Shown: positions 5,887-42,708 of the stretch, piece by piece
How the letters are laid out: each line of letters begins with the position of its first letter
How positions within the stretch are numbered: the first letter of the stretch is position 1
Virus record (IMG/VR): IMGVR_UViG_3300036715_000385
Location: 1-42,708 of that record
Direction: 5' to 3' (one strand)
DNA: 42,708 nucleotides
From: a virus
Position numbers and translations under genes: made by a program
Notes under the pieces: generated by a model
Databases searched by the model: none
Seen by the model: the letters and a program-made list of their open reading frames with translations, nothing else
Told to the model about the DNA's origin: nothing

Positions 5887-6698
5887 TATACACTCCCAAA
5901 CATTTGCCACATAGAGCCCATAATGCCTCCACCTGAACTACCACCAGAACCCCCGCCTAGAAGCCCAGAAACGGCTCCTAATCTACTTGATGAATTATCT
6001 CTATTAGCTCTATCCTCATACATATTAGCTTGACCATTATAGGCATTAGCTAACCCAGTATTAGCATTAGCTCTAGCTTGCTCTCCTAGTGAAGCATAGT
6101 TAGCTTGATTACCTATAGCCCCTACCATTGTTTGATTAGCAAGATTCTTCTGACCTATACCTTGATTATACCAAGATTGTTTCATCTGTGCTACTTGTTC
6201 TGGTGCTGCCATGTCAATAGAGGCATTAGCTTGAGCCTTATTAAACATAGCTTCTTTCTCTAGTTGCTCTCTCTGACCACTTGTTTGTAGCCCTCTTTGA
6301 GTCATAGTCTCATTAAACTGCTTTAGTTGCTTATCTAAACTATCTGCATACTGAGTCTTAGCTTGCTGTGAGAACTTAGCTGGGTCTAGGTTATTATAGT
6401 AATCACTTAGGTTACTCTCAATACTACCAAATGCTGTCTCCCAGTCATTCATCATACCTTGAGCGTGCTCTATACCCTTCTCTCCTTGAGCCATTAAGAA
6501 GTTATCCAAGTTTTTTGAAAGTCCTATATTACCTGCTTGAGATGCTACTGCTAGGTTAGTGCTCTGGGTAGAATTTTTTGAGTTGCCTGAAGGACCATCA
6601 ATCATTCCACCTACACCCCCTCCAATCATAGCACCTACTGGACCACCAAATGCCCCTCCAGCTATTGAGCCTACAATGCCACCTAACCCTTTACCCAT
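5886..6698 (-). CDS. Glycine-zipper internal virion protein (270 aa)
   Basis: The first 35 residues are a glycine-zipper-like hydrophobic segment (GGIVGSIAGGAFGGPVGAMI) of the kind that inserts into membranes. A long Gln/Asn/Ala-rich helical body (residues 45-230) and a Gly/Ser-rich tail ending near MWQMFGSV follow. Small ejection proteins next to the portal gene in short-tailed phages (P22 gp7/gp20 type) have this build: helical, low complexity, with a membrane-active end. The gene is coupled to portal by TAATG, and its start overlaps the end of the GNAT-like gene by 8 nt. An ejection or channel role is likely but not proven from sequence. Confidence 0.6.
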   Translation of the reverse strand: MGKGLGGIVGSIAGGAFGGPVGAMIGGGVGGMIDGPSGNSKNSTQSTNLAVASQAGNIGLSKNLDNFLMAQGEKGIEHAQGMMNDWETAFGSIESNLSDYYNNLDPAKFSQQAKTQYADSLDKQLKQFNETMTQRGLQTSGQREQLEKEAMFNKAQANASIDMAAPEQVAQMKQSWYNQGIGQKNLANQTMVGAIGNQANYASLGEQARANANTGLANAYNGQANMYEDRANRDNSSSRLGAVSGLLGGGSGGSSGGGIMGSMWQMFGSV

Positions 6699-7122
6699 TG
6701 TGTGTCCTTTTAATACTGTATACTTTTGAGATAAGCTTATGTCGCTTATCTAAAACCTTAATGTGTTCACTATTTGCTTCAGTAACTCCTATTATCTCAC
6801 TTGTTGGAAAAGTGTCAAACAACTTTTCATAGAAGTGATATAGTAGTTTACTATGCCTCTTATTAGGAGTTATATATACATTGGTAGCTTCAACCCTATC
6901 CACTAATGGAGTAAGTGGAGACCATCTTCTCTCCACCATAAAAAACCCATTTAATTCCTCATCTACGAATATAAACTTACTTGTGTCAGAGTAAATTTTA
7001 AAAACTTCTACTAGATAGTCATGTGGGTTTTCACTAGCCTTAGCACCAAAAACCTCAGTGTACATTAAATGTAACATCGAAGAAATTTTTGGGATCTCTG
7101 ATGGATTGGCTAGTCTTATCAT
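6691..7122 (-). CDS. GNAT-fold acetyltransferase-like protein (143 aa)
   Basis: The start MIRLANPSEIPKISSML and the order of elements (helix pair, FIFVDEELNGFFMVERRW beta hairpin, VEATNVYITPNKRHSKLLYHFYEKLF, EIIGVTEAN) follow the GNAT pattern: strand 4, then a strand leading to the acetyl-CoA loop and helix alpha-3. The usual Q/RxxGxG/A pyrophosphate loop is replaced by NKRHSKL, so activity is doubtful. T7 gp13 and other podovirus head genes near the portal have a GNAT fold without known activity, and this may be the counterpart. It overlaps the next gene by 8 nt and follows the 61-aa gene after 18 nt. Confidence 0.6.
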   Translation of the reverse strand: MIRLANPSEIPKISSMLHLMYTEVFGAKASENPHDYLVEVFKIYSDTSKFIFVDEELNGFFMVERRWSPLTPLVDRVEATNVYITPNKRHSKLLYHFYEKLFDTFPTSEIIGVTEANSEHIKVLDKRHKLISKVYSIKRTHNG

Positions 7123-8951: not shown

Positions 8952-9602
8952 TTAGGCAGCCTTTATTACAAACATTAGAGCGATATTTTTCATACGGGTC
9001 TCATAGGATTGTTTAGGCGCTCCACTTGTCCCATCGGTAACCATTGTGACTGCACCTGTGAAAGATGTCCCAAACCCAGCATATTTATGTGTGCCTTGAG
9101 TAGCATCTACATTTATATAGCCAAGTTTCTCAGAACCAGTCCCGAAAGTATGCCCCTGAAGTGCATCATCCTGCATACTTCCAAGTGATCTACCACCATC
9201 TACCCCTCTACCATGATCCCATGCTCTAGGAGCAAACCCACGCATATCAGGAATGTTAAAAGTGGTTACCCCGTCACCAATACCCCATACTGTACCTAGT
9301 ACAGAAAATAAGGCATGAGTTCTAGGTAGTGTTTGCCCATTACACTCAATATAATCAGCTGGAGGGGTAGCTGAGCCCCACATAATAATGGAGCCAATAG
9401 GTGCTCCACTAGATGTACCGCCTCCTACACTACCGCTTGCAATAGTATCAGCCTTAGCAGCATATCCTACCTTAACGGCTCCACTGATAATATCCGTAAG
9501 TAAAGTATCATTGGAGGCTATTCCTTCCTCGATATGGTTTAGATTAACAGCATCTATAGCTGGGGCTTGATTATCTACCCAAACAGTTTTAACATAGCTC
9601 AT
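8952..9602 (-). CDS. Short tail fibre with phage tail-collar domain (216 aa)
   Basis: The N-terminal 50 residues (VWVDNQAPAIDAVNLNHIEE) match the usual attachment start of phage fibre proteins. A Gly/Ser linker follows. The tail-collar fold runs from about residue 68, GSIIMWGSATPPADYIECNG, to the signature FNIPDMRGFAPRAWDHG. The C-terminus (SYETRMKNIALMFVIKA) is the standard collar-protein ending. It is a minor fibre or receptor-contact protein. The gene abuts the nozzle gene, and a hairpin lies in the 55-nt gap upstream. Confidence 0.85.
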   Translation of the reverse strand: MSYVKTVWVDNQAPAIDAVNLNHIEEGIASNDTLLTDIISGAVKVGYAAKADTIASGSVGGGTSSGAPIGSIIMWGSATPPADYIECNGQTLPRTHALFSVLGTVWGIGDGVTTFNIPDMRGFAPRAWDHGRGVDGGRSLGSMQDDALQGHTFGTGSEKLGYINVDATQGTHKYAGFGTSFTGAVTMVTDGTSGAPKQSYETRMKNIALMFVIKAA

Positions 9603-9657: not shown

Positions 9658-10272
9658 CTAGAAACCTTTGGTAATACCTACTGACATACCATTGTTTCCA
9701 CCCTCAGCTTGATATGCTTTGACGTTTACACCTAACGACCCATCGAATCCATATTGGATACCAATTGCTCCAGCTGATACATTTGATGCTTGAGAAAGAC
9801 CAAGTCCTGCACTCCATCCTTGATGATCAGGGTTAAAGTCAACACTTGATACTGCGCTTAATGAGCTACGTAGCTTATTAAAGTCATCCTGATTATAGTT
9901 AGTTTTAGTAACTACAGTAGTAACTCCATCAACTCCATTTATACCGTTTGTACCATTCAGACCATTTACTCCATTAGTACCATTAGTACCATTAGTACCA
10001 TTAGTACCATTTATACCATTAGTACCATTCATTCCATGAGCGCCATTTATACCATTAGTACCATTCATTCCATTAGTACCTGCTGGTCCTATCGGTCCTT
10101 GCACACCCTGTGGTCCTTGCATACCCTGTGGTCCTATCGGTCCTTGCACACCCTGTGGTCCTTGCGGTCCTACTGGACCTTGTTCACATTTTGGTCCTTG
10201 TGGAATATGATCTTCCAAGCTTGTAGCTAATGCCATTGTAGCCATTAGTAACAGTGTAAGTAATAGTTTCAT
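9658..10272 (-). CDS. Secreted collagen-like protein with YadA-type membrane anchor (204 aa)
   Basis: The domains in order are a signal peptide at residues 1-17 ([16 protein letters not shown]), a collagen-like stretch of Gly-X-Y triplets (GPQ/GPI type, residues about 25-65, then GTN/GIN/GMN type, about 65-120), a short helix ([16 protein letters not shown]), and a last 55 residues with four alternating strands ending [10 protein letters not shown]. This is the layout of a trimeric autotransporter: Sec export, trimeric stalk, and a C-terminal YadA-like beta-barrel quarter with terminal Phe. ATG 10272 is chosen over an upstream ATG because AAGGAGG precedes it and the signal peptide starts there. 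It sits among tail genes but looks made for the host surface. Incorporation in the virion cannot be excluded. Confidence 0.78.
9971..10006. repeat. 9-bp tandem repeats encoding Gly-Thr-Asn
   Basis: Four perfect copies of CCATTAGTA (minus strand: GGT ACT AAT shifted) lie in a longer degenerate array from about 9936 to 10078. Slippage would change stalk length by whole triplets without a frameshift. Confidence 0.85.
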
Positions 10273-10353
10273 ATTAGTGCCCTCCTTGGCAGTATATATG
10301 GGTCTTACATCATCCATGAAAGCCCTAGAACGCTGTTAAGCCAATGTTTATAA

Positions 10354-10521
10354 TTATGGTAGAGGTATAGGTGCATCAGTGCTCAGCCCTATACCATTTG
10401 TTGTTGATGTAAAGACACCATTCTTAATATCACAGGTACTCGTACAGTTGAATGGTGTATTACGTGACGCACATCCCTGCTGAACTAACGCTAGTATAGC
10501 TAATAGTAATACTTTATACAT
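10354..10521 (-). CDS. Small putative lipoprotein (55 aa)
   Basis: The start MYKVLLLAILALVQQGCASRN is a short basic-hydrophobic signal followed by Gly-Cys at the expected lipobox place. The -3 residue is Gln, which is unusual for a lipobox. The mature part is short, with two further Cys (NCTSTC), and ends in APIPLP. ATG 10521 overlaps the previous gene by 8 nt. An in-frame ATG at 10536 would spoil the signal. An outer-membrane spanin (Rz1-like) or a superinfection-exclusion lipoprotein are possible. The sequence does not decide. Confidence 0.55.
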   Translation of the reverse strand: MYKVLLLAILALVQQGCASRNTPFNCTSTCDIKNGVFTSTTNGIGLSTDAPIPLP

Positions 10522-10840
10522 GACCGATAACTGCATTAGCTGATGCTCTACCTAGAACTACATCACTAGGTATAGGCTCTCCGGTCTCTATCGTTCTAAG
10601 TACATACCACTCAGTATCAGCTAGATAGGTTATTGAATTACTCATATCTACACTATCTTGTGATACAGTTGGTAGTTCAGCATGCAATATTCCTGCTGAG
10701 TATACAATCTCATACCCTAATTCTTGTTGTTCCAATAAGTGGTCATATAACCCTTGAGATACTTGAATAGCATCTACTGGAATAACGTCACTTATACCTT
10801 GAATATATAAACCTTTAGTTGAGGGGGAGTAAAATATCAT
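10514..10840 (-). CDS. Tail fibre assembly-like protein (108 aa)
   Basis: The N-terminus MIFYSPSTKGLYIQGISDVI followed by IPVDAIQVSQGLYDHLLE is the characteristic opening of phage tail-fibre assembly chaperones, which directly follow fibre genes. The C-terminal part has WYVLRTIETGEPIPSDVV. It follows fibre A by 1 nt. The expected role is to help fibre A trimerise or attach, possibly by capping its C-terminal domain. Confidence 0.7.
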   Translation of the reverse strand: MIFYSPSTKGLYIQGISDVIPVDAIQVSQGLYDHLLEQQELGYEIVYSAGILHAELPTVSQDSVDMSNSITYLADTEWYVLRTIETGEPIPSDVVLGRASANAVIGHV

Positions 10841-38750: not shown

Positions 38751-40148
38751 TCATAGTATTGGTAATCCAGCTATTACTGTCTGTGCATCTGCCCATGATT
38801 TAGCTATGTCAAAGTTAGAATACTGAGCATCTTTATAGATTTTAATGCCAGCTATAATACCTAATGAATTTGCTCCATCAGTAATACCAATTAAGCATCT
38901 AGTCGCTGGTGAGGTTAGTCCTGACACAGATGGTTTTCCAACACCATCTAAATATCCAGTTGCAGTCCCACTACCATTATAGTTAAGAACAATATGAGTA
39001 TATGGTGCAGTAGTAGACCAAAGAAATCCACCACCTGCTGTTTGGTCATACTGTGCATAAGCACTTGACCCTGCTCTGATTAGTCTATAAGTATCAAACC
39101 CACCTCCTACTGTTGGGTTTCCACCAGTAGCATAAGGAAGTATTGCTTCAAGAACAAATGGAGCAGCATCGCTTGATATAAATTGTGTATCTACAAACTT
39201 CACACTCTTACCGGCATCAAAACTTAACCCACCACTCATGCCCAATGGTATCCCAAGGGCATCTCTATTCCAAGCTATACATTGAGCACCATACGACAGT
39301 TGCCTTGCTGAATTTACACAAGCTGATGTGAAGTTTGCTATCGATAGTTTTGTTGCAGGAGTTATAGCTATATTATATACATCGGCTAATGTATTATCAC
39401 TCTCACTCATAGGTAAGAATATCTTACAGTTATCTACACTCCCAATATCAGGAACAATACCCCCAGCAGTGTTTATAGTAATCTTCTCAGGGTATTGATA
39501 GAGTGATAGTATCTGTGCATCTGTTATGGCTATGTCGTAATAATAGACTTCACTTATAACACTATCAAAGAATAGGTCAGGAGTTGTTGCTGTTCGTCTT
39601 GCACCTAGACTCAATGGGAATGTAGTCATTGGATAGTCCATATTGAATGAGCCTACGTAATCAGCATCTATGTATACTTTTACAGCCACTCCAGTCCACT
39701 TTACAGCCACAAAATAACTTCTTCCACTAACCAAATCTCTTTGATCAGCAAATAGCGAGGAAGCTCCAATACGAGCGTAAATCTTACCATATACATCAAT
39801 ACCAATCATAAAGTTATTACCATCTGATTGACCAATAGCAAGTCTACTGTCACCTCCACCATAGGTGAATCGTACAATAAGTGTACCCTCTGTAGGATTT
39901 GGAACAATGCTTGTTGCTATGTATTGATTAGTTCCGTTAAATAACTTACCTTGTCCAGACTCAACTACAACATGGTTCTTATCTACCCCTAAGTCTTTAA
40001 GGTATCGATTGGTTGGATCTACTCCAGTACCTACAGGTAATAATGATCCATCATAGAATATAGATGAAGATGATGAAGACCCACCCTCAAATGGTGGAAA
40101 TGTACAGCTCTCAGACACATTAGTATCTAGAGGAGGGAAAGCTATCAT
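38751..40148 (-). CDS. Virion protein with two concanavalin-A-like (LamG) domains (465 aa)
   Basis: A short N-terminal segment with FPP motifs (IAFPPLDTN, CTFPPFEGG) and a Ser linker lead to two jelly-roll lectin folds. One runs from about residue 80 to 225 (LFNGTNQYIATSIVPNPTEG, FDSVISEVYYYDIAITDAQI) and one from about 255 to 450. The ends 'SEVYYYDIAITDAQI' and 'IAGIKIYKDAQYSNFDIAKS' are typical last strands of LamG modules. It is likely a carbohydrate-binding head or tail protein. The start ATG 40148 overlaps the previous stop (TGATG) and follows AAAGGA. Confidence 0.72.
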   Translation of the reverse strand: MIAFPPLDTNVSESCTFPPFEGGSSSSSSIFYDGSLLPVGTGVDPTNRYLKDLGVDKNHVVVESGQGKLFNGTNQYIATSIVPNPTEGTLIVRFTYGGGDSRLAIGQSDGNNFMIGIDVYGKIYARIGASSLFADQRDLVSGRSYFVAVKWTGVAVKVYIDADYVGSFNMDYPMTTFPLSLGARRTATTPDLFFDSVISEVYYYDIAITDAQILSLYQYPEKITINTAGGIVPDIGSVDNCKIFLPMSESDNTLADVYNIAITPATKLSIANFTSACVNSARQLSYGAQCIAWNRDALGIPLGMSGGLSFDAGKSVKFVDTQFISSDAAPFVLEAILPYATGGNPTVGGGFDTYRLIRAGSSAYAQYDQTAGGGFLWSTTAPYTHIVLNYNGSGTATGYLDGVGKPSVSGLTSPATRCLIGITDGANSLGIIAGIKIYKDAQYSNFDIAKSWADAQTVIAGLPIL

Positions 40149-40534
40149 CACTTAATCCTTTTAATACTTGCATTAGCATAGGTAACATTCATAGTATTGG
40201 AAGCTGTTTCTTTACGAGCCTCTAATATTATATGAAGTGGTGTTGTACTAGTCGCCACATAAGGGAACACATATGACCCATCATAATAGTCTGTAACATC
40301 ACTAAACTCATATACGGCTTCTTGCCATGTTATACCCCCATTAATAGAGAACCTAAAGAAGGCTGATTGGTTGGTTGAGTCGAATGTATATGCATAGCTG
40401 ATAACAATTTCATAGGTAGCACCAACAATTTGAGGGACACTAACAATTTCAGCAGCCTTGGTATAAGTTGTAGGTACGTTTAGAATGTTTTTTCTAATAT
40501 CAACCTGTGCCGCTATAATATCAAATAATTCCAT
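40148..40534 (-). CDS. Beta-rich virion protein, unknown (128 aa)
   Basis: The N-terminus is helical (MELFDIIAAQVDIRKNILNV). The rest is a beta-sandwich-like unit (ATYEIVISYAYTFDSTNQSA, FRFSINGGITWQEAVYEF) with the aromatic and Gly spacing of carbohydrate-binding modules. It is coupled to the LamG protein by TGATG. It is probably a companion of that protein. No family is recognised. Confidence 0.6.
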   Translation of the reverse strand: MELFDIIAAQVDIRKNILNVPTTYTKAAEIVSVPQIVGATYEIVISYAYTFDSTNQSAFFRFSINGGITWQEAVYEFSDVTDYYDGSYVFPYVATSTTPLHIILEARKETASNTMNVTYANASIKRIK

Positions 40535-40964: not shown

Positions 40965-42708
40965 TTATAGTCTAACTTTACGAGCTCTAACTGTTTTATC
41001 AACAGGTATCTCTTGTAGTGTTAGTAATACTGTAGAGTCATCTACCTTCTTAATAACCTTAAATGCCTTACCACTATTTAGAACCACCTCAGCTTCTGAA
41101 GGGTCTACTGATACACTAGATATGTCATGCCCATTAGCATTCTTGATAAAGATAGCTACTGGCTTCTTACCTACAACCTTACCTCTCTTAAACTTCATAG
41201 CCTCTCTAGCACTCTTAGAAGTACTTAGAACATTATCATTGCTTATAACCTCACCCTCTTTTATACCAGCCAGTTCCTCCTCAGTCATTCTAGTGCCTCT
41301 ATGCACTGGACTATTGTGATAGTTGGTTGGTGCACTATTAAGGAAGTCTTTCATCTTCTTAGACGTAGCTAATCCATGAGAGTTACGACTATAATCCTGA
41401 ATGGTACTCTTATGTTCAGTATAGCTTAAGTCTTTCATGTACTGCTTAAAGTCATCTAGTTCTATACCAGAGTCTTTAAGTGATTTAAGTAACCTCTTAG
41501 CTGTACCTGTAACACCTGATATAGCTCCATCTGTTAGTTCAGTTATAGTACCTAAGCTAGCATTGGCATGGTAATACTTCATAATGTCCTCTTTAGACAC
41601 CTCGCCATCCCTAAGCTTCTGAGCTAAGAACTCACTAAATACCTTCTTCTTATCACCTGAGTGGAATTCTTCCATTAAGTTCTTACCAAAAATCTTATGG
41701 CCATTCTTCTCTCTTAATCCACGTTGGGCATCTCTTAACTTTTCTATATCTTCTTGACCCATCTTGGCCACTTCAGGCTTTGGCTTTACCATTTCTAATG
41801 GCTTATCTACCTTTGGCTCTTCAACCTTTGGCTTAACTGTTTGAGGTTTAGGTTGAACAACCTCAACGGGCTTTAGTAGGTCAGATGGCTTCTCAGGCAC
41901 TATTACCTTACCATGATTAGTAGGGTCTATCTTCTTTAGTATGGTATTCATACCTTGTTTAGGCACACTAGGTAGTTCACTATTGGATAGTTTCTGCGAT
42001 AACTCCTCATTAAGGTTTATCTCTTTACCGCTTTTAGCCTGTACAACTCTTTGGTCTCTCTTGGCTTGCTCAAGTGCCCTCTTAGCCTCTCTAACTCCTT
42101 CTCCAGCTTCTATGGAGTCATCTACTGCTACCTTTGCAAACTTAACTTTATTATCTGCTTCAGCCATAGCAAGCTTATGCTCTTTAGTAGATTTCTTAAG
42201 CTCATCTAGTTGAGACTTAAGCTTTGCTCTACGGGCTGAGATATCAGTTTGCTGTGAAACAGTTACTAAGTCCTCCACTATATCATCAACTTCTTTATCA
42301 CTCATACTAGCAATAGACTGAAACTTTCTAAGGTCATCGGCTAATACCTTAGCATTAAGAGGTGTACCTTTCTCTAACTGATTAACAATAAAGTTTTGTA
42401 CATTATATGTATCTCTACCTGAAGGTAACTTCTTAGCTACAAAGTTAATAATCCTAGCCACTGGGCTCATAGAAGGTAAGGCATTTGTACCTAGAAGACG
42501 ACTAAGTGTAACTGTTAACTTTGTCTTTATAGCCCCTACAGCTATTTCTTCCATTTCTTCCCTAGGAGTCTTATTAGTATGCCTAATATCCTTTAATACT
42601 TTTTGCATAGCAAGATCGTTAGAGTCATACATATCAGCATACTTAGCAATACGCTTAATAAGTGGTGACTTAAGGTCAAACTTACCTTCAACATTACGCT
42701 CTTGGTTT
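40965..42708 (-). CDS. Large ejection protein with C-terminal ADP-ribosyltransferase, C-terminal part
   Basis: This is the 3' half of the 1087-aa gene; its start is at 1660 across the circular joint. Residues 533-740 are helical with coiled coil. Residues 775-825 are a Pro/Lys/Glu linker (KPVEVVQPKPQTVKPK). Residues about 937-1077 are an ADP-ribosyltransferase domain: a lead helix and IQDYSRNSHG, then SPVHRGTRM (R977), NVLSTSKSAREAM (STS 1002-1004) and DPSEAEVVLNSGKAFKVIK (E1045-x-E1047). This is the complete R-STS-ExE signature of arginine-type toxins. Fusion to a virion protein would place the enzyme in the host at the moment of DNA entry, like T4 Alt. The target is unknown. Confidence 0.85.
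   Translation of the reverse strand, partial: NQERNVEGKFDLKSPLIKRIAKYADMYDSNDLAMQKVLKDIRHTNKTPREEMEEIAVGAIKTKLTVTLSRLLGTNALPSMSPVARIINFVAKKLPSGRDTYNVQNFIVNQLEKGTPLNAKVLADDLRKFQSIASMSDKEVDDIVEDLVTVSQQTDISARRAKLKSQLDELKKSTKEHKLAMAEADNKVKFAKVAVDDSIEAGEGVREAKRALEQAKRDQRVVQAKSGKEINLNEELSQKLSNSELPSVPKQGMNTILKKIDPTNHGKVIVPEKPSDLLKPVEVVQPKPQTVKPKVEEPKVDKPLEMVKPKPEVAKMGQEDIEKLRDAQRGLREKNGHKIFGKNLMEEFHSGDKKKVFSEFLAQKLRDGEVSKEDIMKYYHANASLGTITELTDGAISGVTGTAKRLLKSLKDSGIELDDFKQYMKDLSYTEHKSTIQDYSRNSHGLATSKKMKDFLNSAPTNYHNSPVHRGTRMTEEELAGIKEGEVISNDNVLSTSKSAREAMKFKRGKVVGKKPVAIFIKNANGHDISSVSVDPSEAEVVLNSGKAFKVIKKVDDSTVLLTLQEIPVDKTVRARKVRL
42569..42708. repeat. Right copy of terminal overlap
   Basis: It matches bases 1-140 with one difference (A at 42693, G at 125). 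On the coding strand the change is AAT against AAC, both Asn, so it is silent. It looks like a variant carried in the sequenced population or an error at one end. Confidence 0.93.

Follow-up and report, generated by a model that had tools for sequence, protein, structure and literature searches.

A putative mini trimeric autotransporter with a collagen stalk in the late operon of a Kafunavirus-like phage

The locus and its phage

We analysed a 42,708-nucleotide window, a whole virus record of 42.7 kb (IMG/VR record IMGVR_UViG_3300036715_000385). Its first bases recur at position 42568 (at least 100 bases), which implies a direct terminal repeat of ~141 bases and suggests a complete genome. The portal protein is 43–44% identical to the portals of Dickeya phage Amaethon, Edwardsiella phage KF-1, and Pseudoalteromonas phage PH1, identifying the phage as a Kafunavirus-like podovirus. 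No integrase family was matched among the window proteins scanned, and on this ground an Eib-like temperate conversion gene was rejected.

The gene of interest is an open reading frame of 204 codons plus stop, located exactly where it had been predicted (Table 1). The AAGGAGG ahead of ATG 10272 is the clearest ribosome site among nine gene starts compared. No ribosome site was found in the sequence upstream of a longer start, ATG 10317, and because AAGGAGG precedes only ATG 10272, we take the latter as the start. A second IMG/VR contig, 3300035661_000637, contains an identical 12.8 kb (0 mismatches), which rules out a one-off assembly error as the source of the gene. Within the late structural operon the gene is flanked by a tail-fibre-assembly-like gene and a collar gene, in line with the tail-gene-cluster location originally proposed.

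Directly upstream lies a small ORF with a signal-like start, an imperfect lipobox, LVQQGC (QQGC), and a weak PHROG spanin match (E = 0.039); no clear ribosome site was found in the sequence before its starts. Judging by these features, it may encode an o-spanin or an Llp-like lipoprotein, and it is an uncertain partner of the adhesin. Pfam and PHROG scans of most ORFs in the window recognised neither a holin nor an endolysin. The slot occupied by the adhesin gene varies in related phages, holding a Peptidase_M15_3 endolysin (locus L014) or an Amidase_2 endolysin (L049) with membrane genes, one single-TM gene in PH1 and others, and nothing comparable in L015. None of 80 related portal loci contained a relative of the adhesin gene.

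Three further minus-strand genes were noted in the window. An acetyltransferase-like gene in the late operon (6691-7122) has counterparts in the corresponding position of L013, L014, and L015. A late gene at 38751-40151 contains a Laminin-G/concanavalin-like domain (PF13385, E = 1e-12), and its product is probably a tail protein. A 555-aa protein (40965-42632) has an ADP-ribosyltransferase-like C-terminus with sub-threshold scores (PF03496, E = 3e-4; PF01129, E = 1e-3) and is possibly an injected virion protein.

Table 1. Features of the adhesin locus and of the genome ends
Feature	Position in window	Strand	Basis
Direct terminal repeat, exact over at least 100 bases	1-141 and 42568-42708		Sequence
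Tail collar-domain protein, downstream neighbour	8952..9602	-	PF07484, E = 1.5e-19
CDS, putative mini trimeric autotransporter (signal peptide, collagen stalk, YadA-like anchor)	9658..10272	-	Sequence, Pfam, custom HMM, AlphaFold2, Foldseek
Four predicted beta strands, residues 152-204, C-terminal Phe	9661..9819	-	Pfam, HMM, AlphaFold2, Foldseek
Short predicted helix/linker ahead of barrel, residues 128-142	9847..9891	-	AlphaFold2 with alignment A6; low-confidence single-sequence model
29 Gly-X-Y triplets, residues 32-118	9919..10179	-	Sequence, Pfam Collagen
Predicted Sec signal peptide, residues 1-16, cut ALA/TS	10225..10272	-	Sequence and rule test
Shine-Dalgarno AAGGAGG, 8-nt spacing to ATG 10272	10281..10287	-	Sequence
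Small signal-peptide/lipoprotein-like ORF, directly upstream	10354..10536	-	Sequence; 55 aa (ATG 10521) or 60 aa (ATG 10536)
Tail-fibre-assembly-like gene, upstream neighbour	10514..10840	-	phrog_188, E = 2e-5

Signal peptide, stalk, and C-terminal domain

The N-terminus consists of K2, a hydrophobic core, and A-L-A followed by T, and is predicted by rule to be a Sec signal peptide, as originally proposed. Among 1408 ORFs of 100 aa or more from the window and 91 other contigs, 35 satisfy the signal-peptide-shape rule, the adhesin ORF and its identical copies included; so do 13 of 14 YadA-anchor proteins of phages. Only ~15 residues, and no head domain, separate the signal peptide from the collagen stalk, where an uninterrupted run of Gly-X-Y triplets (Pfam Collagen, E = 1.4e-16) bears out the roughly 30 triplets first noted. 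The run consists of two blocks, 11 Pro/Gln-rich triplets and then 18 Asn/Thr-rich ones, mostly of the GTN/GIN/GMN type. The stalk implies a trimer, and would be ~25 nm long if triple-helical throughout.

Residues 117-204 comprise a short helix together with a glycine-rich domain whose terminal sequence is GITKGF, Phe being the last residue. The sole Pfam family listed for this segment was PF03895 (YadA_anchor; E = 0.14, or 0.079 with the last 70 aa), at 12.7–13.5 bits, below the gathering cut-off of 22.7, and in the correct register (profile positions 10-56 of 60 on the final 50 aa). A combined HMM of phage and bacterial anchors gave 14.9 bits over residues 11-86 of the 88-aa C-terminal domain, a score reached by none of 5000 shuffles and by none of 1597 control ORF C-termini. 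With an HMM from bacterial anchors alone, 8 of 2000 shuffles were as good (p ~0.004), and a C-terminus-anchored alignment to bacterial anchors gave z = 3.7, with 5 of 3000 shuffles and 0 of 1403 ORFs as good; the bacterial anchors in both comparisons were taken from gammaproteobacterial genomes. Taken alone, the bacterial-anchor comparisons are suggestive, and the signal becomes clear once phage anchors are added. The alternating hydrophobic strand pattern of the best four segments (p = 0.007 vs. shuffles) falls within the range of true anchors (p from below 0.002 to 0.13).

BLASTP against an IMG/VR anchor gave E = 6e-5 in a single comparison, and SAGAIG..GFD is common to the window C-terminus and one IMG/VR anchor; a search of IMG/VR with Hia-type anchors yielded one short contig. 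The AGIAGVAAMANIP linker motif of phage anchors is absent from the window protein in alignment A6, with A24 the only conserved column retained in that stretch. The lone window sequence gave no significant hhalign result, phmmer found no match to the protein among PDB sequences, and tblastn found none in phages (whole protein or C-terminus) or, for the C-terminus, in GTDB genomes, where the whole protein returned collagen-like matches only.

AlphaFold2, given an alignment of 14 anchor rows, predicted a helix (residues 12-26 of the 88-aa domain) and four strands (36-46, 49-61, 64-73, and 77-86) for a single chain, with pLDDT 69 and pTM 0.53. Since the alignment consists of YadA anchors, the fold is partly imposed, and this model is best read as a consistency test, not as independent proof. 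The single-sequence model was uninformative (pLDDT 46), though helix 128-142 also appears in it. The four strands per chain originally proposed are thus seen in the model with the anchor alignment. The helix before the anchor is predicted to be only ~15 residues long, where family members carry a coiled-coil stalk. In Foldseek searches, the anchors of AtaA, Hia (three entries), and YadA took the first five places in the PDB (TMq 0.63–0.72), and most named best viral matches were YadA-like phage proteins, including the agglutinating adhesins of phiEco32 and SP-076. The defining trait of the family, a C-terminal YadA-type anchor (PMC3297439), is thus seen with the custom profile and in the fold match, while the Pfam gathering score is missed; together these point to a divergent YadA-type anchor, as the original prediction had it.

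Phage proteins with YadA anchors

The combination of a signal peptide with an outer-membrane barrel had been thought unusual in phages. This did not hold up, and the idea of a unique oddity was rejected: a phage-wide tblastn search with a bacterial anchor matched 75 phage records, mostly of virulent enterobacterial phages, and at least six have collagen too. With a phage-contig anchor, 71 phage records were matched, among them the prophage record P-EibA. Seven of 14 genes inspected encode a signal peptide, a Gly-X-Y run, and an anchor, with 22 triplets in phiEco32, 12 in KM01, 41 in SP-076, 43 in Tr1, 31 in PCSE1, 17 in RF1, and 9 in fENko-Kae01. Collagen and anchor both score above the Pfam cut-offs in the first six of these, and the collagen match of fENko-Kae01 is slightly under its cut-off.

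Two papers describe such genes: yadA homologues occur in SP-058, SP-076, and phiEco32, not close to tail-morphogenesis genes (PMC3728262), and PF03895 is present in 19 N4-like genomes (PMC10654107). Both read the homologues as a possible virulence trait, and neither passage on them contains a functional test. The literature searched yielded no experimental test of superinfection blocking, aggregation, or debris binding. The named relatives that we checked for context have the gene among nucleotide-metabolism, RNA polymerase, dUTPase, tRNA, or Ter genes; lying outside the tail-morphogenesis genes, it fits a protein acting on the cell rather than a virion part, and such varied non-virion positions in virulent phages fit a role in the infected cell.

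Small trimeric autotransporters (TAAs), often collagen-stalked, thus occur in several unrelated virulent groups (Kuravirus, N4-like, Privateervirus, T4-like, and jumbo phages), and the window member extends them to one more, the Kafunavirus-like phages. Virulent phages gain nothing by altering a lysogen, so any benefit of a TAA gene must come in the course of infection or shortly afterwards. Because the window anchor falls below standard detection, phage TAAs are probably under-counted.

Possible roles and known systems

We propose that the product of the gene is a phage-encoded mini trimeric autotransporter residing in the outer membrane of the infected cell (probability about 0.7), with trimer, export, and topology all inferred. 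The type Vc route comprises Sec export, a trimeric outer-membrane barrel, and movement of the passenger to the outside (PMC3297439). The chain would be made late, probably abundantly, and exported by Sec with removal of its signal peptide; three chains of four strands each would then build a barrel of 12 strands, which BAM would insert into the outer membrane, and the collagen part would move out and fold into a rod of up to ~25 nm on the infected-cell surface. Such a rod could mask or crowd receptors, keeping superinfecting phage and released virions off the doomed cell and its debris, and this masking, on the infected cell or on debris, is our leading, if tentative, guess at the purpose. The Llp protein of phage T5 keeps new virions from becoming stuck to debris, and the late position of the window gene would by analogy fit the same task. 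Against the main reading stand the sub-threshold Pfam anchor score and the non-significant hhalign result, the uninformative single-sequence model beside a better one aligned to YadA anchors, and the loss of the AGIAGVAAMANIP linker. The late-operon position also suits early superinfection exclusion less well, and late surface display would be of little benefit to a virulent phage unless debris or neighbours matter.

The same surface trimer might instead be used for adhesion, making infected cells or debris stick together, to surfaces, or to new hosts and keeping progeny near targets, which we regard as a possibility nearly as likely as masking within the trimeric-autotransporter reading. Bacterial trimeric autotransporters are mostly adhesins (PMC3297439), Eib proteins make E. 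coli cells form chains and autoaggregate (PMC12511318) and the P-EibA record is related to the anchors studied here, and the phiEco32 and SP-076 homologues are annotated as agglutinating adhesins, although phage records assign such names by homology. With ~15 residues before the collagen, the window protein has no recognised binding module and, because it has no head domain, passive crowding or masking is somewhat likelier than specific adhesion. It is unlikely that the C-terminus is some other glycine-rich secreted beta domain, YadA-like by composition. The sub-threshold Pfam and hhalign results and the bacterial-only HMM, beaten by 8 of 2000 shuffles, would agree with such a domain, but none of 5000 shuffles or 1597 ORF ends reaches the combined HMM score, the C-termini align in register, the hydrophobic alternation lies in the true-anchor range, and the fold matches all solved TAA anchors.

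A part in lysis, with the trimer spanning the periplasm or perturbing the outer membrane in place of spanins and the small lipoprotein-like gene as its partner, is improbable. The slot holds lysis or single-TM genes in related phages, the collagen length is near the width of the periplasm, and the window yielded no recognisable holin or endolysin, although unrecognised lysis genes may just be highly divergent; the TAA genes of phiEco32 and KM01 are close to a cell wall hydrolase gene, but most other phage TAA genes are distant from lysis genes. A spanin has an inner-membrane TM segment or a lipoprotein, linked through the periplasm to the outer membrane. Despite the lysis-gene slot, the ALA/T cleavage site speaks against an inner-membrane anchor, the neighbour's lipobox is imperfect, and an autotransporter passenger ends up outside. 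A two-gene outer-membrane device, in which the small lipoprotein and the collagen-rod trimeric barrel replace the lysis/spanin step by bridging or disrupting the envelope, seems very improbable. Little more probable is a role in the virion, as a fibre or a decoration protein, with a hydrophobic N-terminus that is no working signal peptide. Collagen repeats are typical of phage fibres and tail genes flank the window gene, but the PHROG tail-fibre matches are confined to the collagen repeat, and tail-fibre identity was rejected on that account. A collagen tail fibre has no export signal and has a tail-attachment domain at the N-terminus or a receptor domain at the C-terminus; the window protein has a signal peptide, for which the fibre reading was set aside, and signal-like starts are kept in 13 of 14 homologues. 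Export and an outer-membrane-type C-terminus would divert the protein from cytoplasmic virion assembly. The collagen-bearing TAA of Klebsiella jumbo phage fENko-Kae01 (L154, 1005-2222) is annotated as identified by LC-MS/MS, a detection possibly due to contaminating membrane debris.

The closest counterparts of this putative surface trimer include the 'agglutinating adhesin' gp119 of phiEco32 and its KM01 homologue, from virulent E. coli phages of the genus Kuravirus. These are likewise single-gene proteins of similar size (about 196–227 aa vs. 204 aa) with a signal peptide, 12–22 triplets, and a YadA anchor, but they have a clear Pfam anchor (E about 3e-19) and a coiled coil between collagen and anchor. 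Their YadA-anchored gene adjoins a Hydrolase_2 cell wall hydrolase gene or lies one small gene away (L145, 2446-3743; L142, 3653-4743), whereas the window gene lies between tail-fibre and collar genes. SP-058 and SP-076 (N4-like Schitoviridae), Citrobacter phage Tr1, Salmonella phage PCSE1, and Erwinia phage RF1 share the signal peptide, a stalk of 17–43 triplets, and the anchor, but their proteins are longer (320–366 aa), with an extra N-terminal region and a coiled coil, and the SP-076 gene, unlike that of the window, lies among RNA polymerase and dUTPase genes. The mini-TAAs Privateer gp130, Cronobacter CsaP_009 gp58, and that of CGG4-1 are equally compact (140–194 aa), with a signal peptide, a stalk, and a YadA anchor ending in GF; they differ in having a coiled-coil stalk without collagen and anchors that score better (E = 5e-10, 4e-9).

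Eib proteins of E. coli prophages (P-EibA) are also phage-encoded trimeric autotransporters, but they belong to temperate phages, act in lysogenic conversion, and have a coiled coil and head in place of collagen. The solved anchors of YadA, Hia, and AtaA match the predicted window helix and four strands per chain at 15–19% identity, although these bacterial proteins have passengers with coiled coils and heads. A gammaproteobacterial TAA (L038) also has collagen stretches in a YadA-anchored stalk, but it is bacterial, with YadA-type head repeats and a 793-aa open frame. The phage collagen-stalk mini-TAA layout, with signal peptide, Gly-X-Y run, and YadA anchor in one gene, is present in the window gene. 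Its product appears to agree with the phiEco32 gp119 type in kind and architecture, outside the close sequence family of the latter. New in this member are the Kafunavirus-like group and a sub-threshold anchor without the AGIAGVAAMANIP linker; it also has no long coiled coil and occupies a late-operon slot beside a small lipoprotein-like ORF. The window protein thus ranks as a very divergent addition to a known, little-studied set of phage TAAs rather than as a new kind.
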